Source of the DNA: Flagellimonas aequoris
GTDB taxonomy: Bacteria; Bacteroidota; Bacteroidia; Flavobacteriales; Flavobacteriaceae
DNA length: 64,000 bases
Direction: 5' to 3'
Assembly: GCF_003584165.1 (NCBI RefSeq)
Contig: NZ_QXFJ01000015.1
Span: 5,001-69,000, forward strand
In this document: in pieces, positions 17,826 through 27,663 of the stretch
How the letters are laid out: every line of letters starts with the position of its first letter
Position numbering within the stretch: position 1 is the first letter of the stretch
Notes under the pieces: generated by a model
What the model saw: the letters and a program-made list of their open reading frames with translations, nothing else
Databases searched by the model: none
What the model was told of the DNA's origin: nothing
Program-made: the position numbers and the translations under genes

Positions 17826-17900
17826 GGGCGCTTAGCTCAGCTGGTTCAGAGCACCTCGTTTACACCGAGGGGGTCGGGGGTTCGAATCCCTCAGCGCCCA
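17826..17900 (+). tRNA. tRNA-Val (anticodon TAC)
   Basis: 75 nt cloverleaf. Acceptor GGGCGCT (17826-17832) pairs with AGCGCCC (17893-17899), followed by discriminator A. The anticodon stem CCTCG/CGAGG encloses loop TTTACAC with anticodon TAC; the T loop is TTCGAAT. CCA is not encoded. A terminator follows directly. The A/T-rich accessory stretch begins just beyond. Confidence 0.95.
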
Positions 17901-17910
17901 CAACAGACAA

Positions 17911-17945: not shown

Positions 17946-18241
17946 TTTCATAATACTCAGGAGCATCCAAAAAAGTTTCATTGACACCACATCAGCACAC
18001 GGGCTGGATTGAAAAACTTAAGACGGCGAGGCATAAAAATTACAAGAATGCCAGGTCTGGGCAATCAGACATTGCACAAGGCCATGTTGGCAGAACGATA
18101 CTACAGGGACAATAAACAAACCTTGGACACAGCATCTTGTAAAAGCACAAAAAGAAAATCAAAAAGTAATAATTGCTCGAATTGTAAGGATAATATGTAT
18201 TTTAAAGCGATGTAAACACCATAACCATTAATAAATACTCC
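17946..18241. other. gene-free region at left edge of accessory stretch
   Basis: Nearly 300 bp between the tRNA terminator and the thioredoxin-like gene. A 68-codon frame (18009-18215) is rich in Arg, Lys, Ser and Asn, matches no family I know, and has no consistent codon character. The first part (17975-18110) could be the remnant of an older gene because it is less A/T-rich than what follows, but I cannot name it. No repeat of the tRNA 3' end, which would mark an attachment site, was seen. Confidence 0.4.
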
Positions 18242-19240
18242 ATGAAAAAATTAATATATGGATTGATTCCATTTTTAATTATCGCTTGCAGTACAAAACC
18301 AGATAATCAATTTCAATTAATCGGCACTACCAATGGAATTGAAAACGGTACAGTTCTATATATTGATGACACTGGGACCGAAACCTCGGTGGATTCTACA
18401 ATTGTTGAAAACAATTCTTTCCATTTCCAAACAAAATTATCAAAAACACCCTTACAAGTGGTTTTGAGAACAAAGAACTACACTCATTATCGGTTTTTAT
18501 GGCTTGAAAACAATTCTATGTCCTTTGATGCCACTAATGCCGATTTCAGAAATGCACTTGTCACCGGTTCTGTTGAAGAGAACTTAAGCTACAGCTTGAG
18601 CAAGGAAACCGATACGCTTCCACGGGATGAAAGGATAAGAAAAGAACAACAATTTGTAGAGCGGCATCCAAACAGTATCCACAGTGCTTACATTCTATCA
18701 GTTTATGCCTCCACTTGGGGAAAAGAAAAAGCCAAAGAACTTTACGAAAATCTTTCAATCGAAATCAAGCAAACAGAGTACGGAAAGAAAATAGCAAACT
18801 TTATCAAGCTGAACAAAAACCCAAGGATGGGTGATAGTTATGTTGACTTTGAAATGGAGAGCCCCAATGGAGAATTAAAAAGGCTATCTGAGTTTAAAGG
18901 CAAATTGGTTTTATTGGAATTTTGGGGTTCAGGTTGCCTTCCATGCAGACAGGAAAATCCAAACTTGGTGAATACCTATAAAAAATACCAGCCTAAAGGA
19001 TTCGAGATTTTCGCTGTATCCCAGGATACAAAAAGAGAAAGTTGGCTGAAAGCAATTGAAGATGATCAATTGCCTTGGATTCAAGTCAGTGATTTAAAAG
19101 GGCATAATAACACAGCTTCTTTAATTTATGGGATAAATTATATTCCAGACAATTTTTTGATTGATCAAAAAGGTATCATAATAGAACGGGATATCCGGGG
19201 TGAAAGACTAATCGCAAAACTGGAAGAGTTGTTAAACTAA
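18242..19240 (+). CDS. TlpA/AhpC-TSA-type thiol-disulfide lipoprotein with N-terminal DUF4369-like domain
   Basis: 332 residues. Lipoprotein signal with Cys at about 16 (PFLIIACST). An N-terminal beta-rich domain (FQLIGTTNGIENGTVLYIDD) resembles DUF4369. The C-terminal half (from about residue 195) is a thioredoxin fold with the redox pair in WGSGCLPCRQEN and a cis-Pro loop near NYIPDNFLID. It probably reduces or isomerises disulfides at the periplasmic face. It is the first gene of the A/T-rich plus-strand stretch and ends 1 nt before the first weak copy of the 20-bp boundary repeat. Confidence 0.87.
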   Translation: MKKLIYGLIPFLIIACSTKPDNQFQLIGTTNGIENGTVLYIDDTGTETSVDSTIVENNSFHFQTKLSKTPLQVVLRTKNYTHYRFLWLENNSMSFDATNADFRNALVTGSVEENLSYSLSKETDTLPRDERIRKEQQFVERHPNSIHSAYILSVYASTWGKEKAKELYENLSIEIKQTEYGKKIANFIKLNKNPRMGDSYVDFEMESPNGELKRLSEFKGKLVLLEFWGSGCLPCRQENPNLVNTYKKYQPKGFEIFAVSQDTKRESWLKAIEDDQLPWIQVSDLKGHNNTASLIYGINYIPDNFLIDQKGIIIERDIRGERLIAKLEELLN

Positions 19241-19241
19241 A

Positions 19242-19261
19242 CAAGTTTAAATAAGTGATTA
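19242..19261 (+). repeat. boundary repeat copy 1 (divergent)
   Basis: CAAGTTTAAATAAGTGATTA, a weaker match to the AAAGTTYAAATAAACGATGA element found at five other gene boundaries in 19.9-24.2 kb. It lies immediately after the thioredoxin-like gene and 15 nt before the start of the next reading frame. Confidence 0.5.
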
Positions 19262-19276
19262 CAACCGAAGAACAGA

Positions 19277-19887
19277 TTGTTGAAAAAGCTAATATTAATA
19301 TTATTCTTTGGACTTTGTGCCTGTAAAACAGGATTTGATTCCACTTCAACCAATACAACTTCAAAAGAATGTGTTGAAAAGGAACAAATGAAAACTTTAG
19401 AAAAGGCGGTAGAATTGTTTGAATTTAAAATTGAGGACCAATATTCTGAGATTTCTAAGGAAGCAGCTTATTTTGAATTCATATCCGATTGGGCAAATAA
19501 TGAATTGCCTATGAATTTTTTCAAAGATTCATTGGAATTGAAGATTAGAAATTTGAATATATGGGTAGAGTCCAATCGCTCAGAAAAGGATTTGGACTTG
19601 GAGAAAAATTGTACAATGTTGACTCAATGAATCCCATTCGAGTCAAATTAAACCCTGATTTTTCAGTTTGCCTTGCGAATAAAATCGATTGGATGCTTGG
19701 GACTAGCAGTTTTTTGAGAGTGAATTCAAAATATCGGTTAAGTCCAAAGCTTGCTAAAAAGCAATTGTACAAAACAAGTGAATATGACTTAAAAATATTT
19801 GAAAATAGGTTGGCAATTGTTCTTGGAGTTTATTATCAAACTATGTTTAATATCAATACTACGGTTGTCTACACTTTAGATAATTAA
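19277..19887 (+). pseudogene. frameshifted hypothetical lipoprotein gene
   Basis: The first frame (19277-19630, start TTG, no ATG available) encodes a lipoprotein signal (ILILFFGLCAC) and an acidic alpha-helical stretch and stops at TGA 19628-19630. A second frame, one base over, continues from about 19600 to 19887 with good protein character (LYNVDSMNPIRVKLNPDFSV ... VYYQTMFNINTTVVYTLDN). The switch fits a one-base change in the A-run at 19604-19608. Joined, the product is about 200 residues of unknown function. It could be a true pseudogene, a sequencing error, or two overlapping genes; a single broken gene is most likely because the second frame has no start or signal of its own. Confidence 0.55.
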
Positions 19888-19894
19888 TTTTTTT

Positions 19895-19914
19895 AAAGTT
19901 TAAATAAACGATGA
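19895..19914 (+). repeat. boundary repeat copy 2
   Basis: AAAGTTTAAATAAACGATGA. Its ATG (19911) is the first start codon of the next reading frame. 7 nt separate it from the preceding stop. Confidence 0.7.
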
Positions 19915-20546
19915 TCATCAACTCAATGAAACGACATGATTTGAATGGAACCTGGTTAATGACCATGGATGGCCATACTTATGGAAGACAAATGTTCATT
20001 GAATTTGAGAATGAACAAATTGTGCATTACAAAGTTGCAGAACAGTCAACCAATGGAACTTTGGAAAGAGAACTTCTTTTCAAGGAGAAATTATCAGCAA
20101 CAAAAAATGAGCTTGTGAATGAAGATAGGATTCGTCTTTACAGAATGGGAGAAACACACTTTATAATTAGTGAAACCGAATCTAAATCAGAAGACACTGA
20201 ATTTGCTACAGATTATGTCAGAATTGAACCCACCATGACTTATCTGACAAAAGAAGAGATTCAAAAATTGAAGTTTAAAATTGTGTGGAACAATGAGGAA
20301 TTTAATTTCATTTTCAACCAAATATTGGATAACGAAACGATTCAAGAAATAAACCAAAGATTAGGGAGAAAGGGTAGTATGATGTTTTTGGAGGAAATGA
20401 ACGAAACCTATTTTGGTTCCATTTATGACAATGACATTAGAAGAACCATGATGGCCATCAAGGAAATTAATCCTGATAAGATTATTCTTTATGGCTTTCC
20501 TGCCAAACCATATGAAGTAGTAAGTTATAAAACAATAAAGACATAA
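19911..20546 (+). CDS. hypothetical protein, possibly lipocalin-like at the N-terminus
   Basis: 211 residues, no signal peptide or membrane segment. It starts inside boundary repeat copy 2; an internal ATG six codons on (MKRHDLNGTW) is an alternative. The N-terminal half (LNGTWLMTMDG ... ERELLFKEKLSATKNELVNED) has a G-x-W opening and beta-strand spacing as in small lipocalin-like domains; the C-terminal half is mixed alpha/beta. I do not recognise a family. It is A/T-rich like its neighbours and closed by the next repeat copy 13 nt after its stop, so gene plus repeat form a 665-bp unit. Confidence 0.7.
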   Translation: MIINSMKRHDLNGTWLMTMDGHTYGRQMFIEFENEQIVHYKVAEQSTNGTLERELLFKEKLSATKNELVNEDRIRLYRMGETHFIISETESKSEDTEFATDYVRIEPTMTYLTKEEIQKLKFKIVWNNEEFNFIFNQILDNETIQEINQRLGRKGSMMFLEEMNETYFGSIYDNDIRRTMMAIKEINPDKIILYGFPAKPYEVVSYKTIKT

Positions 20547-20559
20547 ATTACCATTAACA

Positions 20560-20579
20560 AAAGTTCAAATAAACGGTCA
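20560..20579 (+). repeat. boundary repeat copy 3
   Basis: AAAGTTCAAATAAACGGTCA; identical to copy 5 for the first 16 bases. It stands 13 nt after the stop of the preceding gene; here the ATG of the consensus is lost (GGTCA) and the following stretch holds only gene debris before the SGNH gene. Confidence 0.7.
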
Positions 20580-20732
20580 TCATAGTTCCTGGAAATTCTA
20601 CCATTTAAACCCTTAAAACTGCACTCATGTACTTTTACTAGGTTGGAAGATGCCCTTTTCATTGCTTTGTATGCTATTGTTCATCATAGATGTGAAACAT
20701 AAAAAACAAGTGTCGATCTTAAATACAGAGAA

Positions 20733-20910
20733 ATGGGAAAAAGAGTAATGATAAGTCTAACACTGGTATTGATGTTAGCTTGTTTTGCATCAACAAAAAC
20801 CAACTAACCCATTGCAAAAGATTACCAAATTGAGGAAAAATGGATTTGGGATGGGAACGAAAAGTAAATGGCGAAGTTAAGGACAAAGTATATGATATTC
20901 AATAAGTTAT
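20733..20910 (+). pseudogene. remnant of a small lipoprotein gene
   Basis: A 24-codon frame (20733-20807) begins with a credible lipoprotein signal (MISLTLVLMLACFAS) and stops at once after STKTN. Coding-like but frame-broken sequence continues to about 20910 (fragments such as YQIEEKWIWDGNEK and NGEVKDKVYDIQ in one frame). It reads as a decayed member of a family of short exported proteins. Family unknown. Confidence 0.4.
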
Positions 20911-21023
20911 AAAACGCAAAGGAACTTTTGAGAAAAAATGTTCTTGCAGGAATACAGTCACTTAATGTAATCTTCATACTTATATTTGAATCGCCTCGAT
21001 CAAAAAAAATCAAATTCAACAGA

Positions 21024-22682
21024 ATGATATATATAAAAAGGTTTTTTAGTCTTTTATTGTTGTTAATCGTAGTTTTCTCCTGTTCACAGCCTAAAGAACA
21101 AGATGATAAGATTAAGATTTTGTTTATCGGAAATAGTTATACGTATTATAACAGTACTCCGGAGTTATTAAAGGCATTGATAAAAGAGAAATTTCCGGAA
21201 CAGATAGTAGAAACCCAGTTGATTAGCGGTGGCGGCATGACACTTGCAGACCATTGGAAAAATGAAAGCACAAAAGAAACCATAAGGACAGGTGAATGGG
21301 ACTATGTCATACTTCAGGAGCAAAGCAATCTGGGAATGGGAGTGATAATTGACCACAACACATATTTTGGACAAACGGACCTATTTTATGACCACGCCAG
21401 AAAATTTGATGCCGAAATAATAAAATCAGGGGCTAAGACAGTATTCCTAATGACATGGTCAGTTAGAAATCAACCGCAAGAACAAGCGATATTGACTCAC
21501 GCATATGCGACTATTGCAAAGGAACTTGAGGCAATAGTAGCTCCAGTTGGCTTGGTGTGGGACAAGATGAGAACGAATCCAAAGATTGATCTATATGCTG
21601 ATGATGGAGGTCACCCATCACCAATGGGCTCCTATTTAGTGGCAACTACACTATACGGAACATTAATGGGCGAAAACCCTCTAGGGCTTTCAGGAGTTAT
21701 CACAGGAAATCGGCTGTCGAATAGCGGTGAACTTTTAGAAGACAAAGAATTGTTGGTCAATCTTTCTGACGAAGAAACTCAGTTGATTCAAGAAGCAAGT
21801 TGGGAAGTGGCCAAGACCATGCAAAATCCTTCCGATCACCTTGATTTCAAACGACCGGAACCTAGTTATACCATTCCTGTTATAGCCCAAGGCGAACCTA
21901 TTGAACTAAAAAATATTATCGGAAAATGGTATGGTACCAGCACTTATGGATCTGATTATCTTGGTCAAATAATGGAGGTTAATGATGTGGAAGGCAAACC
22001 TGAAGTGAGTCTATCATTTTTCTCGCCTCATGCAAAAGATCAAATGAGAGTGGATAGTTCAGTTATTAAAGGAGATCAATTGATTTTGACTCTTTATGAC
22101 TCTTTAAGAACCAGAAACTCTGAAGTATGCATTTCGCTTAGCGGAAGTAATATGGAGGGGATATTAAAATCCTCCGGTAATATTCAAATTTATAAGCATT
22201 TATATTTTTCTAAAAAACCTTCCCTTAACGAAATTGATCTTTCAGTTTTAGAATTGCTGATGGAATCCTTCCAATCCAACATTGTTAAGGAGGGTTATGC
22301 AAAAGCTGCATTAAAACACTATAAACAATACAGTAAACTGATAAGTGAAACGTATAAACCTGAAGAATTTTATCTGAATGCAGTTGGGTACAATTTGCTG
22401 CGGGATGAAAAAGTAAATGATGCACTTAACTACTTTCAATTGGCCATGATTTATTATCCTGAGTCTATAAATACATACCAAAGCTATGCAGAGGCTTTGA
22501 TTTTAGCAGGGCAGAAAGATAAAGCATTGGCCGTTTATATGAATGCATATGAGCTCGCCAAAAAGTCGGGCGATGAAAACCTTGCGTTTATCGAAGATAA
22601 TCTGAACAAATTGAAAAAAAATATTTCAGTTGATTTTGAGGGAGAAGGAAGTCCACCACCTCCACCACCCCCATCTCATTAG
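21024..22682 (+). CDS. SGNH-hydrolase lipoprotein with C-terminal TPR-like repeats and poly-proline tail
   Basis: 552 residues from the ATG at 21024, which gives a clean lipoprotein signal (LLLLIVVFSCSQ); a start 32 codons upstream would bury it. Residues about 30-225 form an SGNH-type esterase domain: nucleophile Ser in LFIGNSYT, then GGG, then QEQSN, and a catalytic Asp/His pair in DGGHPS. A middle beta-rich section (about 300-400) begins IIGKWYGTSTYG, and a C-terminal section (about 445-535) carries two TPR-like helical repeats. The protein ends in seven consecutive prolines plus SH. Substrate unknown; deacylation of a surface glycan or lipid is plausible. It fills the longest interval between boundary repeats. 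Confidence 0.8.
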   Translation: MIYIKRFFSLLLLLIVVFSCSQPKEQDDKIKILFIGNSYTYYNSTPELLKALIKEKFPEQIVETQLISGGGMTLADHWKNESTKETIRTGEWDYVILQEQSNLGMGVIIDHNTYFGQTDLFYDHARKFDAEIIKSGAKTVFLMTWSVRNQPQEQAILTHAYATIAKELEAIVAPVGLVWDKMRTNPKIDLYADDGGHPSPMGSYLVATTLYGTLMGENPLGLSGVITGNRLSNSGELLEDKELLVNLSDEETQLIQEASWEVAKTMQNPSDHLDFKRPEPSYTIPVIAQGEPIELKNIIGKWYGTSTYGSDYLGQIMEVNDVEGKPEVSLSFFSPHAKDQMRVDSSVIKGDQLILTLYDSLRTRNSEVCISLSGSNMEGILKSSGNIQIYKHLYFSKKPSLNEIDLSVLELLMESFQSNIVKEGYAKAALKHYKQYSKLISETYKPEEFYLNAVGYNLLRDEKVNDALNYFQLAMIYYPESINTYQSYAEALILAGQKDKALAVYMNAYELAKKSGDENLAFIEDNLNKLKKNISVDFEGEGSPPPPPPPSH

Positions 22683-23121
22683 TTGTTATTCGTTTCATGC
22701 CATATTCTGCTTCATTCAAAGTTGCAAGGTCTATGCAAATCGGCGACGTTTATTTTAGTATCAAGGATTTCATTTAATAAGCTTCAAGGACACATTGCAA
22801 TGCTAAAAGCAGTAGCGATTTGGCTATATACTCAAACAGTTTTTGTTATTAATAGGTAGCTTGCCAACGTAAGTGTTTTATCCGAAAACTGAGCTTATAC
22901 TTACCGTCACCAAAGTTTAATTAAACGATGAAAAGCTCAAAGATGCATTTCGCAAATGCCCAATGTCAGTCCCTTATAAAAGAAGATTTTAAGAAGGAAT
23001 TTTTCAGACGCTACAATTTTTGAGAATGACATTCTATAAATAATTGGGCGAGCTGGGGCGGTGGTCAAAAACTTTACCAACATTTACTTGCCTCCTACTC
23101 CAAAATGTCAATCTGATGGTT
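22683..23121. other. 439-bp region with repeat copy 4 and a short frame
   Basis: Contains an imperfect inverted repeat (GTAAGTG at 22869-22875 opposite TATACTTAC at 22896-22904, with an inner GTTTT/AAAAC) just upstream of boundary repeat copy 4 (22912-22931). A 31-codon frame starts at the ATG inside the repeat (22928) and ends at 23023 (MKSSKMHFANAQ...). It is too short to support as a gene. The remainder, up to the minus-strand DinB gene, holds nothing recognisable. Confidence 0.45.
22912..22931 (+). repeat. boundary repeat copy 4
   Basis: AAAGTTTAATTAAACGATGA; the ATG at 22928 opens a 31-codon frame. The core GTTTAATTAAAC is a perfect palindrome in this copy. Confidence 0.7.
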
Positions 23122-23685
23122 TTATTTCGGCAAGCGGTTCTTTATAGTGCCTATTTGCCCCATGTGGTTTGCCGAATGTTCCATGACATGGTACCAAATG
23201 TAACGGTAGTTCAAGCCCTCTTCAATGTTCGAGGCGAACCAGGCATCATCTTTGGTTTTGAGTCCGGCCAAGGTTTTTGCGCGCACTTCATCCCACAGAT
23301 CTAAATAGTGGCCAATAGGCTCTCCTTTGAGCATGTTATTTACTTTGGAGTTCAGTTCCCCCGCAACCCCAAGGCTTTCTATCTCCTCTGATGTCCATTC
23401 CCTGTCTTCTAAGGTAGCTACTTGGTAATACGACTCCGTAGATACCAAATGCATGATCAATGCCCCTATGCTATTCGCATCGGCATCATATTGGAAATCG
23501 GTTTGTGTTTGGTCCAAGTCCTTCACCTGTTCGGTAATTCGTTCCTTTAGGTCTTCCAACATATAGACCATGCTACCAATGTTCGGCGAATAGCCCGCTA
23601 CCGACTTTAATTCTCCCTGTGCCTGCAAAAATAGCATCGGTAAGCATAGCAATAAAAGGCTGTTTTTTGTTTTTAAAGATCTCAT
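23122..23685 (-). CDS. exported DinB-family (DUF664-like) protein
   Basis: 187 residues with an N-terminal signal peptide (NSLLLLCLPMLFLQAQG). The mature part is a four-helix DinB/YfiT-type bundle with the metal-binding His residues likely in ALIMHLVSTE (about residue 79) and YHVMEHSANHMGQI (about 165-175). Members bind divalent metal and include thiol transferases and damage-induced proteins; an exported form is common in Bacteroidota but its substrate is unknown. It is the only minus-strand gene between boundary repeats 4 and 5 and the only one of better G+C content there, so it may have arrived separately or be part of one 1.05-kb unit. Confidence 0.82.
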   Translation of the reverse strand: MRSLKTKNSLLLLCLPMLFLQAQGELKSVAGYSPNIGSMVYMLEDLKERITEQVKDLDQTQTDFQYDADANSIGALIMHLVSTESYYQVATLEDREWTSEEIESLGVAGELNSKVNNMLKGEPIGHYLDLWDEVRAKTLAGLKTKDDAWFASNIEEGLNYRYIWYHVMEHSANHMGQIGTIKNRLPK

Positions 23686-23978
23686 AGAGTCGGTTTCAAA
23701 TGAATAAGGGAAAATATATAGCTTTTTTAATAGTGCTATTCTCTGCCATCCCCAAATATGGGAAAAAGGTACTTTAATCCCTTCAAGTAGCCATAGGTAT
23801 ACACCATTTTGACAAGTTCTTAACAGTGTATCTATTCCTTTTGTAACCTTTAGAACATATTTATTCAGTTACCGGTAGTTATAAAAATGAATCCATGAGG
23901 CTTCGCATTTGTTGGCTTCCTGTTTTCAAACCATTGATAAACCAGAATTCTTACCTTTAAAGAAAGTTCAAATAAACG
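23686..23978. other. gene-free region upstream of small ORF
   Basis: About 290 bp. The part next to 23685 must contain the promoter of the DinB gene on the minus strand. No gene, hairpin terminator or RNA is recognisable; boundary repeat copy 5 closes it. Confidence 0.4.
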
Positions 23979-23982
23979 ATGA
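23963..23982 (+). repeat. boundary repeat copy 5
   Basis: AAAGTTCAAATAAACGATGA, taken as the consensus. Its ATG (23979) is the start codon of the following 66-codon gene. Confidence 0.75.
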
Positions 23983-24179
23983 AAAATAAACTTAGTAAAT
24001 GGACAAAAGAAATTGAGGAGGTTTCTATGTGTGTTTATAAAATTACTCTAACCCATGAACTTGGACCGTCAGTACAAAAAATAGGGCATGACTTAGAGAA
24101 ATTAGAGAGTGAAGTTGAGCTTTCGGCGATTGAAATAGACAATCAAATCGAGGAAATGATAAAAACTAAAAAAGCATAG
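23979..24179 (+). CDS. small hypothetical protein
   Basis: 66 residues, soluble, strongly helical, rich in Glu and Lys (WTKEIEEVSMCVYKITLTHE, KIGHDLEKLESEVELSAIEI). The start codon is the ATG of boundary repeat copy 5. It is followed after 3 nt by a short hairpin and then repeat copy 6, so repeat plus gene form a 244-bp unit, the smallest in the array. No family recognised; short charged proteins of this size are common as antitoxins or cassette genes, but nothing here proves either. Confidence 0.55.
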   Translation: MKNKLSKWTKEIEEVSMCVYKITLTHELGPSVQKIGHDLEKLESEVELSAIEIDNQIEEMIKTKKA

Positions 24180-24182
24180 CCG

Positions 24183-24198
24183 GTAAAAGCAATTTTAC
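24183..24198 (+). terminator. weak hairpin after the 66-residue gene
   Basis: GTAAAA (24183-24188) pairs with TTTTAC (24193-24198) around GCAA. The stem is A/T-rich and no clean T-run follows, so termination is uncertain. Confidence 0.3.
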
Positions 24199-24206
24199 AA
24201 CTTTAA

Positions 24207-24226
24207 AAAGTTCAAATTAACGATTT
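24207..24226 (+). repeat. boundary repeat copy 6
   Basis: AAAGTTCAAATTAACGATTT, matching the consensus at 17 of 20 positions. It lies 27 nt before the AraC-type regulator gene. Confidence 0.65.
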
Positions 24227-24253
24227 ATAGAGAGATCCTGTTAATTTTATAAG

Positions 24254-25330
24254 ATGTATTCAGTAATAAAGGGACTGTTATTTCTTGTTTTCATAATGGG
24301 GTCCATTCTGTCCTGGAAGTTGTTTTCCTTTCCTAGAAAAACAAAGTTTATCGCTTTTTACACGCTGTCCATTACATTGATAGCTTGCAATCAAATGCTG
24401 TCTTATTATAGTTCAAACATTGAAATTTTCCCCATTTTTAATACGTTCATAGGCTATTTTCTCTCACCCTTACTTTTTTTTCAATGTATTTCACTGTTTA
24501 AGATCAATGATTTTAAAAAGCTTTTTTATCGACATATCTTAGTCAGCATCCCCTTTTTGTGTATCATTATCTATTGGATTTTTGATGACTACCGAAGAAA
24601 ACTGCTGGGCTACGGCAACAATTCCTATATTACCATTTTACTGGTTGTTCAATATTTCGTTTATCTACTTCTTCTCATCCTATTTTTGGGCAAAAGGAAA
24701 GGATTGATGCGTGGGATCAAGCCCACTTTGCAATTTAAAAGAATACGTTTGACCGTCATACTTTTCTTGATCCAAGCCCTGATCACCATCGCTATGCTAT
24801 TTGAGAATTTTACTTCCTATGAAGGTCTGACCGAATATTTGGTATTCTTTATTTTCCTGTTGTTTATGGGCCAGTTGGTATTGATTTTTTACAACCATAA
24901 CAAATACCTGAATTTTTTTACGGGGAACGATGAGCCGATCCATTTTACCAATGAAGGATATGATAAAGTTGGGTGGGTTAAAAGTGAATCGTCCAAAGAG
25001 GTTTTGCTGGAACTCCAAAAGCTAATGTCTGAGCAAAAACTGTTCAAGGATTCCTCTTTGAATTTAAAACGTTTGGCAGATGAGTTGCATATGGCCGAGC
25101 ATACCTTATCTAAAATTTTAAAGGACTCCTATAACTTGACTTATTCCCAGTATATAAGTTTTCAACGGCTGGAGGAAGCGAAAAAATTGTTGATACAATC
25201 CAGGGACAATGGCGCTAGGATCAATGAGATTATGTTTGAAGTTGGATTTAACTCCAAGTCGGCTTTCAACACGTGGTTCAAAAAAAGGACAGGTTTTACC
25301 CCAACAGAGTTCAAAAAAGGTTCTGAATAA
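24254..25330 (+). CDS. membrane-bound AraC-family transcriptional regulator
   Basis: 358 residues. Seven or so hydrophobic segments fill residues 1-220 (7TM sensor-like region), followed by a cytoplasmic AraC DNA-binding domain with two helix-turn-helix units: SLNLKRLADELHMAEHTLSK near 270 and INEIMFEVGFNSKSAFNTWF near 325, ending RTGFTPTEFKK. The arrangement is common in Flavobacteriaceae and suggests a regulator that senses something at the membrane. It is followed after 84 nt by the broken hydrolase gene, which may be its target. Confidence 0.9.
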   Translation: MYSVIKGLLFLVFIMGSILSWKLFSFPRKTKFIAFYTLSITLIACNQMLSYYSSNIEIFPIFNTFIGYFLSPLLFFQCISLFKINDFKKLFYRHILVSIPFLCIIIYWIFDDYRRKLLGYGNNSYITILLVVQYFVYLLLLILFLGKRKGLMRGIKPTLQFKRIRLTVILFLIQALITIAMLFENFTSYEGLTEYLVFFIFLLFMGQLVLIFYNHNKYLNFFTGNDEPIHFTNEGYDKVGWVKSESSKEVLLELQKLMSEQKLFKDSSLNLKRLADELHMAEHTLSKILKDSYNLTYSQYISFQRLEEAKKLLIQSRDNGARINEIMFEVGFNSKSAFNTWFKKRTGFTPTEFKKGSE

Positions 25331-25414
25331 AAAAACAGTACCCTTTTTATCGCATATTTTGGACGTTTCTTTTTTCTGTTTTTTATTATTGCCCATGATT
25401 ACATAAATCTGGAA

Positions 25415-26722
25415 ATGAATGCAATAGTGAAACAACGGTTCGAAAAAAAAACCTTGATACTTGCCATGTTGCTCCTGGCCATTGGGTGTTGGGCCGATCA
25501 TTCCGATGAAAAAGGGTTGGCCGGAATCTATGAGGGCATGTTTGCCCACGGAAACTTTTCTACACCAATCCAAATTGAAATTAAAAAGGATTCTCTTGAC
25601 TATAAGGTTTATTTCACCAGTCCGGATCAAAATGCATACGGCATACCTACTTCCCAGGTCAAGAAAATGGGAGACTCTATTTCTTTTGAACTCAATAGCG
25701 ACTATTTCAGTTTTCGATTTGGAAGTAAATTATCCGAAGATGGCTCTGCGTTGAACTCTATTTTATTGGTTGACAGTATCGCACAAAACTTCACTTTAAA
25801 ACGGATGGATGATCTGGAAGACCCGACCCATGGCCAGGAAGAAGTATCTTTTAATTCAGAAGGATTTAATTTGAAGGGTACGGTTTACCACCCAAGTAAA
25901 CCTTCCAACAAGGCTATTTATTTTGTTACTTCTTCAGGGAATTCCGATAGAAGTGCCACTCGTGCCGAAGCCATTGCATTTACGGATAAAGGGTATGTGG
26001 CTTTTCATATGGACAAGCGTGGGACGGGTACATCAGAAGGGGATTGGGGAAGTTCTTCCATTGAGGATCTGGCCATGGATGATATCAATGCCATAAAATT
26101 TTTGGCCACCAAACTGGAAATACCGTTTGAGAATATCGGTATTAAAGGGAGTAGCCAAGGAGGGGCAAAGGTGCCGTACATCCTGTCCAAAATGAAAGAT
26201 TTGGCTTTCGGGATCGTGGTGAGTTGTCCATCCACTACATTATTGGAAAGTGATTTGAACTATTGGAAAAATAGAAATAGCTCCTTAATTGAGGACCATT
26301 ATTTTGATGAAGCGTTGGCTTTTGAACGTGGGGTCTTTCAATTTATTGGAGGGACGACATCTTTGGAAACTTTGAAGGGTTTGATAGCACAAAACTCGGG
26401 CAAACCTTGGTTTACAAAGGTCTGGGTGCCAGAATTGGACAAAGTGACGATTGATACGAAGTTGCAATATTCGCCGATGCCTTATTTTAAAATAATCGAT
26501 TAACCTCTGTTGATCATACAAGGAACCAAGGACGAAATTATTCCGAAAGAAAGTAGCTCCTCCATTTATGAAGTCATCAAAGGCCAACAAAAGTCCAAAT
26601 CCGTTATGTTGGTAAATGCGAATCATTCCATGCAACTGGTGGAAAACAACGATTTTCCATATTGGCCGATGCCGCATCCAAAGTATATGCCCACCATTAT
26701 GGAATGGTTGGATGGTTTATGA
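25415..26722 (+). pseudogene. alpha/beta hydrolase lipoprotein gene interrupted by an in-frame stop
   Basis: The first segment (25415-26503, 362 residues) has a lipoprotein signal (LAMLLLAIGC), a beta-rich N-terminal domain, an alpha/beta hydrolase core with YFVTSSGNSDRSATRAE and HMDKRGTGTSEG, and the nucleophile elbow GIKGSSQGG. It stops at TAA 26501-26503, but the same frame continues without a break to 26722 with PLLIIQGTKDEIIP and LVNANHSMQLVE, which carry the catalytic Asp and His. One base change (CAA to TAA) would explain it. The truncated product lacks two catalytic residues, so the gene is probably inactive; intact relatives are S9/S15-like peptidases or esterases. Confidence 0.82.
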
Positions 26723-26852
26723 TGCATCTCGAAGAAACCAAGGGAAGCGAGGTTCCCAAAATTTGAAAAGTAAATGACCTTATCCAAAAACCCAATGGGC
26801 ATATTGTTCAAATGCCCACTCATTTTGAAGATGCTCTTACCCTTTTGCGATG

Positions 26853-27272
26853 CTAAATGTCCAAAATGCCGCTAAGATTTTCTGAGGAAATGGGAGCGGA
26901 TATGTGTTGGTGGACCACTGTCCAACGATCCGCGCCTTTGGAGAACCCAACAGTAATCCTGTTTTTCATACTTCTTAGTACCGCTCCTTTCGGGGAAATC
27001 GCCTGAAATTTAATCAACCCACTGGCAAACCCTATGGTTTCTGACAGGTGGATTTTTATCATTTCAAAGTCAACCTTCACTTTTTCATCACCCAGGGAAC
27101 CTAACCAATTTTTGATCCCGGGTTTCCACTCCTCTAGGTTGGGATAAAAACCCCTGTCCCACATGTCAAATTGAACTGCTTCGGTGTCGTATAGCCCCAG
27201 TAGTGCGTTCGCATCTTTTTGCCATACGGCTTCTTGGTAGGCGGTAAAAAAGTCTTCAATGGTTTTTATCAT
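26853..27272 (-). CDS. NTF2-like (SnoaL/DUF4440 type) protein
   Basis: 139 residues, no signal peptide. The opening IEDFFTAYQEAVWQKDANALLGLYDTEAVQFDMW is typical of NTF2-fold domains, and the rest supplies the curved sheet (VKVDFEMIKIHL, GFASGLIKFQAI, WTVVHQHIS). Members bind small molecules or act as cyclases or isomerases; no catalytic residue set is clear enough to assign one. It is a single gene with no obvious operon partner. Confidence 0.82.
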   Translation of the reverse strand: MIKTIEDFFTAYQEAVWQKDANALLGLYDTEAVQFDMWDRGFYPNLEEWKPGIKNWLGSLGDEKVKVDFEMIKIHLSETIGFASGLIKFQAISPKGAVLRSMKNRITVGFSKGADRWTVVHQHISAPISSENLSGILDI

Positions 27273-27441
27273 GCAAATATCTTTTGGATGATTGGCTCAA
27301 GTTATTGGTTTTGTTGATTTCGATATGGGTAAGCATGGGACCATCTGAAGGCAAATGCCATGTTAATTAGGATATTCCCAATCAAGGTTCGTTCTGTATG
27401 GCCCCTCTAAAAAGCCTTGGAAATAGTATTATTTATATTAC

Positions 27442-27663
27442 TCAATCCGGTTTCTTCCCTTTGAGCAAGGCATAAATGGCCATGGCATGCCCGTGCCCCA
27501 ATTCAAATTCCTCTTTTAGCCAATCCGTGATCTGGGTAGCCTTAATTTCAGGTCTTATTATCCCATTTTGTGTAAATCCCTTCTTTTCTGCCATCGCTTT
27601 AAAATCGGAAGGGGATTTGCCCGTTTTCGCTTGAATATTATCTAGATATGCTTGAAACGACAT
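27442..27663 (-). CDS. DUF4287 domain protein
   Basis: 73 residues: SFQAYLDNIQAKTGKSPSDFKAMAEKKGF followed by ITDWLKEEFELGHGHAMAIYALLKG, the full DUF4287 pattern. A small soluble helical protein of unknown function, often fused to or next to DUF5655 in other bacteria. Its ATG overlaps the stop codon of the DoxX gene by one base, so the two are co-translated. Confidence 0.85.
   Translation of the reverse strand: MSFQAYLDNIQAKTGKSPSDFKAMAEKKGFTQNGIIRPEIKATQITDWLKEEFELGHGHAMAIYALLKGKKPD

Follow-up and report, generated by a model that had tools for sequence, protein, structure and literature searches.

A decaying gene-cassette array in Flagellimonas aequoris and its probable place in an integron-like system headed by a serine recombinase

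Introduction

The integron, the textbook device for collecting gene cassettes, comprises the integrase IntI and the recombination sites attC and attI; its recombinase is an unusual tyrosine recombinase whose substrate is folded single-stranded DNA (PMC9024848, PMC8946536). The dif modules of Acinetobacter are adaptive genes bounded by short recombination sites and spread as modules (PMC6449649). Here, we examined a stretch of 64,000 nucleotides from Flagellimonas aequoris (Flavobacteriaceae; assembly GCF_003584165.1, contig NZ_QXFJ01000015.1, positions 5,001 to 69,000 of the forward strand), referred to below as the window, in which an initial annotation made from the letters alone had pointed out six copies of a repeat of about 20 bp that mark gene boundaries like cassette junctions. 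Comparison with related genomes led us to the reading, to which we give a probability of roughly 0.8, that this locus is a decayed mobile gene-cassette array without its recombinase, the intact relatives of which are run by a serine recombinase encoded at the head of the array. The wider system is probably an independently evolved, integron-like one, in which a dedicated small serine recombinase would capture, excise, and reshuffle cassettes at an 18-bp double-stranded site; it would extend across the Flavobacteriaceae and be carried in part on integrase-bearing islands.

Results

An 18-bp site forms arrays across the genus

When the window was searched with the 20-mer of the initial annotation at up to three mismatches, exactly five matches were found, all on the + strand, against a chance expectation of 0.02; none of 100 shuffles gave five matches. 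The common strand, the spacings, and the three copies that supply the ATG of the next open reading frame (ORF; 19911, 22928, and 23979) were as previously reported. The length and the number of copies had to be revised: the repeat is real, but the conserved site is 18 bp long (AAAGTTCAAATAAACGAT) and does not include the final GA of the 20-mer, and five of the six copies are clear, whereas the one at 19242 is weak and is read as a decayed site because a clear site follows a TlpA-like homologue at the same place in another genome (G010). In the host genome, the copies cluster and do not stand before many genes; outside the cluster there was one additional copy of the 20-mer, with three mismatches, on a different contig. 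A lone weak site-like sequence (matrix score 15.9) lies at 1517–1534 of the window, distant from the array.

The site matrix, built from 349 distinct copies with up to two mismatches (maximum score 31.4), showed a sharp 18-bp block between flanks low in information; because the copies were chosen by similarity, it overstates the conservation inside the site. The site is a quasi-palindrome, GTTYA-AA-TAAAC, with the half-sites AAAGTTCA and ATCGTTTA, and among 387 array sites its center was AA in 325 and AT in 43. Within the genus, 62 of 71 genomes contained the 20-mer at up to two mismatches, the highest copy numbers being 35 (G026) and 29 (G044), and in many genomes the copies were grouped into arrays; the reversed pattern, used as a control, occurred once in each of three genomes. 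At the family level, 71 of 349 genomes had a copy at up to one mismatch and 14 of 349 had four or more, and the frequency of isolated copies was close to that seen with the reversed control (no more than two per genome).

Units between sites are exchanged singly between species

We defined a unit as the DNA between neighboring same-strand sites 100–4,500 bp apart, which gave 387 distinct units in 87 loci, with a median length of 579 bp. Among the 373 units with an ORF of at least 50 amino acids, the longest ORF lay on the strand of the site in 356, where it covered a median of 86% of the unit and started a median of 39 bp after the first base of the site; 14 units had no ORF of that length. 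The cargo was diverse: ORFs of at least 80 amino acids numbered 347 and fell into 284 families, and among the 140 family representatives scanned, no Pfam family was seen more than three times. The matches included TPR, DinB, hydrolases, an immunity-like domain, and a ParE-like toxin.

A blastn comparison of 43 arrays of the genus yielded 74 matches between different genomes, which are not all independent because several share one cassette. Excluding same-genome pairs, the identical arrays L127 and L128, and matches shorter than 150 bp or below 78% identity, 230 of 270 homology ends lay within 12 bp of a site, compared with a mean of 15.1 and a maximum of 35 when the sites were randomly shifted (500 trials). 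Left ends peaked at the first base of the site and right ends at its last. Whole units were also homologous in pairs: of the 48 pairs of a first count, seven from within one locus were dropped, and a later count, for which identical cassette sequences were merged beforehand, gave 43 pairs among the 387 distinct cassettes. In 42 of these 43 pairs the neighbors on both sides were unrelated, and in the remaining one the left neighbor was related. These comparisons, made between species and not between strains, are the strongest evidence of the analysis and show that units have been exchanged singly between species with their ends at the site. The suggestion of cassette-like units at a new recombination site is thereby borne out between species, since single units have homologues in other contexts and homology stops at the repeat.

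The bases within the sites that flank shared units give some indication of where exchange occurs. At left sites, positions 0 and 6 differed in 14 of 42 and 8 of 42 cases (about 8 and 10 if unlinked), and at right sites they differed less (3 of 43 each), whereas position 18 showed the opposite trend, differing in 7 of 42 left sites and 26 of 43 right sites. Because these positions behave oppositely at the two sides, exchange appears to lie within the site or at its edge.

A clade of serine recombinases is linked to the arrays

Inverted copies of the site at array heads pointed to the recombinase gene, which stands at the head of many arrays and is co-oriented with them. One or two inverted sites precede this gene, on the side away from the array; the sites of the array are direct repeats. 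Among the loci with at least 54% identity that reach the N terminus, 33 of 47 had an inverted site 87–93 bp before the gene start, and several loci without it had a diverged copy at the same place. The stretch between the inverted site and the start codon was alignable in each of the 33 rows and contained additional AGTTYA half-sites; farther upstream, most rows were dissimilar. Two flanks were shared there: one of about TTTTTAGTAGTTTCGTTAATT, 162–169 bp before the gene in nine loci across genera and both recombinase types (L157, L158, L162, L165, L168, L174, L183, L184, and L188), and another 217–221 bp before the gene in six loci.

The recombinase P0001 matched the Resolvase N-terminal catalytic domain (PF00239, E = 1.1e−41), and the Ser and Arg motifs (YARVS and DR..R) were invariant in 14 aligned recombinases. 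Small serine recombinases have a helix-turn-helix DNA-binding domain at the C terminus; in P0001 a C-terminal region is present and had no Pfam match at 0.001. The best solved-structure matches were the DNA-invertase chains 4m6f and 3uj3, which we take to be Gin, together with gamma-delta resolvase; the match to the Mpi model was far under the cut-off (63.7 of 272 bits). The closer recombinases are of type A (80–97% identity) or type B (54–59%). In type A, the C-terminal tail of P0001, with its CxxC and CxxxH pair, is found, and it is absent from type B; this tail is perhaps a metal-binding extension. The recombinase at L117:17284–17958 (G016) is apparently chimeric, with a type B-like N-terminal third and the rest type A-like.

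A recombinase match at E ≤1e−20 was found in 39 of the 71 genomes of the genus, and a type A or B match, fragments included, in 36 by our reading of the match table. The median number of sites per genome was 8.5 with type A or B and 2.0 without, and 28 of the 36 genomes had three or more sites. In named genomes, where the set consisted of the best 80 matches, 49 loci had at least 54% identity; apart from a Cytophaga record and an Oleispira bin, these were from named Flavobacteriaceae. Downstream same-strand sites (matrix ≥16) were found in 33 of the 41 such loci with at least 5 kb of downstream sequence, 30 of them with two or more, and at one named locus a site lay upstream. The 31 more distant recombinases (at most 52% identity; not all with 5 kb of downstream sequence) had no downstream sites, and none of four unrelated same-genus resolvases (41% identity), the negative control, had a site in the region examined. 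A tree was built from 71 recombinases, and a branch with support of 99/86 set apart the 41 labeled array-type, a label that denotes the locus group and not the presence of an array. The arrays are thus linked, in the loci compared, to one recombinase clade.

Position 14 of the site is often G instead of C in Maribacter and Arenibacter loci (L167–L169, L172, L177, L182–L185, L188, and L198), and this occurs with both recombinase types; therefore, the variants of the site seem to be tied more closely to the lineage of the host than to the type of enzyme. Meanwhile, a tyrosine integrase related to L064:1337–2608 was encoded upstream of the recombinase in 6 of the 49 named loci, one being a weak partial match, and also in L064 and L238, suggesting that islands carry some of the arrays. 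Among plasmid and phage records, none exceeded 60% identity to the recombinase, and the exact site was present in eight viral-contig stretches, once in each; a plasmid- or phage-borne system was rejected on these grounds.

Some contig ends of G026 fall close to sites. Contigs C2, C4, C11, and C44 (L048, L050, L051, and L054) start 103–109 bp ahead of a site, and the recombinase contig C7 (L102) stops at one side precisely at the inverted site and at its other side has 127 bp in common with the start of C2. The part of the contig ends examined gave no rival continuation, and the pattern could reflect rearrangement in culture or repeated units.

Integrase and attC tests

The attC site is characterized by the boxes RYYYAAC and GTTRRRY, set in an imperfect palindrome that folds. 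An attC core box was found in only 5 of the 387 sites, and 60 sampled sites showed no excess of folding (mean z −0.21 on one strand and −0.20 on the other). Furthermore, no match to the integron integrase (TIGR02249), a tyrosine recombinase with an extra domain, exceeded the cut-off in ten genomes, namely nine with arrays at type A or B loci or with large arrays, and the host. The atypical attC array envisaged in the initial annotation was rejected for these three reasons. In integrons, cassettes enter at attI, next to the integrase; the site that precedes the recombinase by about 90 bp in 33 of 47 loci is inverted and on the side away from the array. By these tests the system, although it appears to work like an integron, is not one.

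The window locus is read as a relic array

The features of the window locus are listed in Table 1. Because its recombinase fragments, TlpA-like gene, and sites parallel intact and relic heads elsewhere, we read it as a relic array, now decaying, whose enzyme has been lost; cassette 1 is split and cassette 4 disrupted. The absence of an integrase from the window, reported earlier, is correct in that no tyrosine integrase was seen in the stretch, but serine recombinase fragments lie just upstream of the array; they match P0001 at 72% over residues 87–104 and at 66% over residues 126–169 (tblastn), and the catalytic N-terminal part is missing. The two overlapping ORFs of cassette 1 are apparently one broken gene, and cassette 3 is perhaps more than one unit, the sites between having been lost. 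Cassette 2 has homologues of 65–67% DNA identity in other species, where they are without sites.

Table 1. Features of the relic array and its left edge in the window
Feature	Coordinates	Strand	Description	Basis
tRNA-Val (tac)	17826..17901	+	edge of the array region	ARAGORN, Rfam
Serine recombinase gene remnant	17950..18128	+	two matching pieces, 17950-18003 and 17997-18128	tblastn of P0001
TlpA-like lipoprotein gene	18242..19240	+	AhpC-TSA/thioredoxin; between recombinase remnant and site 1	Pfam
Site 1	19242..19259	+	CAAGTTTAAATAAGTGAT; read as decayed	matrix 8.6; same place as first array site of G010
Cassette 1	19260..19894	+	overlapping ORFs 19277-19630 and 19561-19887	
Site 2	19895..19912	+	AAAGTTTAAATAAACGAT; last bases supply next ATG	20-mer search (0 mismatches), matrix
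Cassette 2	19913..20559	+	ORF 19911-20546, 211 amino acids, no Pfam match	
Site 3	20560..20577	+	AAAGTTCAAATAAACGGT	20-mer search (2 mismatches), matrix
Cassette 3	20578..22911	+	debris, then ORF 20928-22682 with DUF4886 match (Pfam)	
Site 4	22912..22929	+	AAAGTTTAATTAAACGAT; AT center	20-mer search (1 mismatch), matrix
Cassette 4	22930..23962	+	truncated short ORF behind site; DinB-like ORF 23122-23685 on opposite strand	Pfam
Site 5	23963..23980	+	AAAGTTCAAATAAACGAT; equals consensus	20-mer search (0 mismatches), matrix
Cassette 5	23981..24206	+	ORF 23979-24179, 66 amino acids, no Pfam match	
Site 6	24207..24224	+	AAAGTTCAAATTAACGAT; last recognized site	20-mer search (3 mismatches), matrix

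The same head is found in G010 (L065), with a full-length recombinase, a homologue 73% identical to the TlpA-like gene at the same position followed by a clear site, and eleven sites. In G055, a tyrosine integrase stands behind the same tRNA-Val (tac), and after it, at the contig end, comes the start of a type A recombinase with its inverted site. G027 contains a parallel relic (L055:10690–12737), in which 24 sites lie behind two inverted sites; its recombinase is gone directly after the start codon, and both inverted sites have been kept. In the closest relative found, G030, homology to the window continues to 17948 and then ends, and no site was found within the 19.9 kb examined. This genome offers no clean empty site, as a different gene occupies the interval from the tRNA to the following conserved gene.

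The entire block at 17949–26857 of the window is absent at this place in G030, and the AraC-type regulator and hydrolase to the right of the array may be part of the same insertion as the array block. To the right of the array (24001–27500, up to five substitutions), no second copy of the tRNA's final 20 bases was reported.

Discussion

From these observations we infer the following mechanism. A cassette would usually be one gene between two copies of a directional 18-bp site, and in the intact relatives the likely enzyme is the one whose gene stands at the array head, a small serine recombinase from the resolvase/invertase family. It would pair two directly repeated sites and excise the intervening DNA as a circle carrying one site, which would then be inserted at another site; this insertion is the least certain step. 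The exact crossover point would fall within the site or at its edge, and the asymmetric center, usually AA, would enforce a single orientation. The control region of a resolvase combines a full site with accessory sites, and the inverted site that precedes the recombinase gene by about 90 bp, together with the half-sites, resembles such a control and accessory region and may have a similar role.

Several observations weigh against this account. Many arrays have no recombinase nearby; of the 35 genomes that had no type A or B match, 15 contained three or more sites, and 8 of the 41 recombinase loci with at least 5 kb of downstream sequence had no site there, nor was a variant site recognized in the seven of these eight that were scanned (all except L200). 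Moreover, 8 of 41 type A or B genes (those matching from residue 1 in the examined regions) are broken or short. The crossover was not placed at the center of the palindrome: positions 9–10 look unlinked on both sides, position 14 contradicts a central crossover, and a simple likelihood scan favored positions 15–18, the 3′ end of the site, so that we claim no particular base. Among the loci compared, none of the window's cassettes recurred in a different array. The resolvase/invertase family mostly resolves or inverts within one molecule and seldom integrates, and the recombination described here is deduced from the comparison of sequences.

Some of these points, namely the rarity of integration by this enzyme family and the commonness of arrays in genomes without type A or B, would fit a reading in which units move by homologous or illegitimate recombination at short repeats, or through an enzyme encoded elsewhere, while the recombinase only flips or controls its own segment via the inverted site; indeed, an inverted site next to the gene is what the control region of an invertase or resolvase looks like. 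We consider this unlikely, given that the linked enzyme belongs to one clade and heads the array in 33 of the 41 loci that could be tested, that 18 bp is short for homologous exchange, and that homology nearly always ends at the site and orientation is uniform. The promoter, ribosome-binding, or start-codon element before genes that three window copies might suggest, by giving the ATG of the next frame, has a negligible probability: an ATG comes from the site in only 110 of 387 units, the longest ORF starts there in only 68, the host genome has a single cluster, and homology between genomes ends at the site. The conserved translation-initiation region once offered as an explanation falls with it.

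The integron-like layout, with its one-gene units, uniform orientation, diverse cargo, and relic arrays, could also be expected of an atypical integron remnant resembling a CALIN (cluster of attC sites lacking integron-integrases) and served by an integron integrase elsewhere. This is highly improbable, as far as sequence can tell, since no such integrase passed the cut-off in any of the ten genomes, the attC boxes are missing from 382 of the 387 sites, and the sampled sites showed no folding excess. It is just as improbable that the tyrosine integrase of a carrier island recognizes the sites. A related integrase does lie upstream in 6 of the 49 named loci and in L064 and L238, but it was not found near the other 43 with the one query protein used, which other integrase families could escape, and the common partner of the arrays is the serine recombinase, in place of the linked tyrosine recombinase that the initial annotation had anticipated. 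We therefore favor a cassette array with a serine recombinase at its head, of which the window would hold a decayed example.

In the literature searched, which included few subscription journals and no preprints, we recognized no description of serine-recombinase cassette arrays and found no paper containing the site sequence. We rate the system as a whole as new because no tested family fits it; its parts, a serine recombinase and a cassette-like array, are of known sorts. The results suggest that a gene-collecting device like the integron has evolved in bacteria on more than one occasion. If this is true, the cassette strategy arose repeatedly, with integrons not its sole origin, and marine Bacteroidota would hold an unexplored gene pool, as illustrated by the 284 families among 347 cassette ORFs in our sample. 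It also becomes testable whether a resolvase- or invertase-type enzyme integrates circular cassettes between molecules.

Among known systems, the small serine DNA invertases (Gin, Hin, and Mpi) share the protein family and the inverted site beside the gene, but there inverted repeats surround a switch, whereas here direct repeats each bound an exchangeable unit. The Tn3 and gamma-delta resolvases are alike in the catalytic domain and in that the upstream full site and half-sites recall the sub-sites of res; they have one res, and here there are many sites. Integrons have a tyrosine recombinase and a structured attC, whereas the present system has a serine recombinase and a conserved site of 18 bp; its recombinase is co-oriented with the array, where the integron integrase gene, intI, is usually divergent. 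The sites of dif modules alternate in orientation, whereas those described here are uniform. As a whole, dif modules (XerC/XerD, pdif) are the nearest analogue as site-bounded modules, but they are set apart by using the tyrosine recombinases XerC/D of the host and by occurring mainly on plasmids, whereas a dedicated serine recombinase is linked to the arrays here (PMC6449649). With integrons, the system shares arrays of mostly one-gene, same-orientation cassettes that are exchanged singly, a recombinase at one end, diverse cargo, and relics (PMC9024848, PMC8946536).

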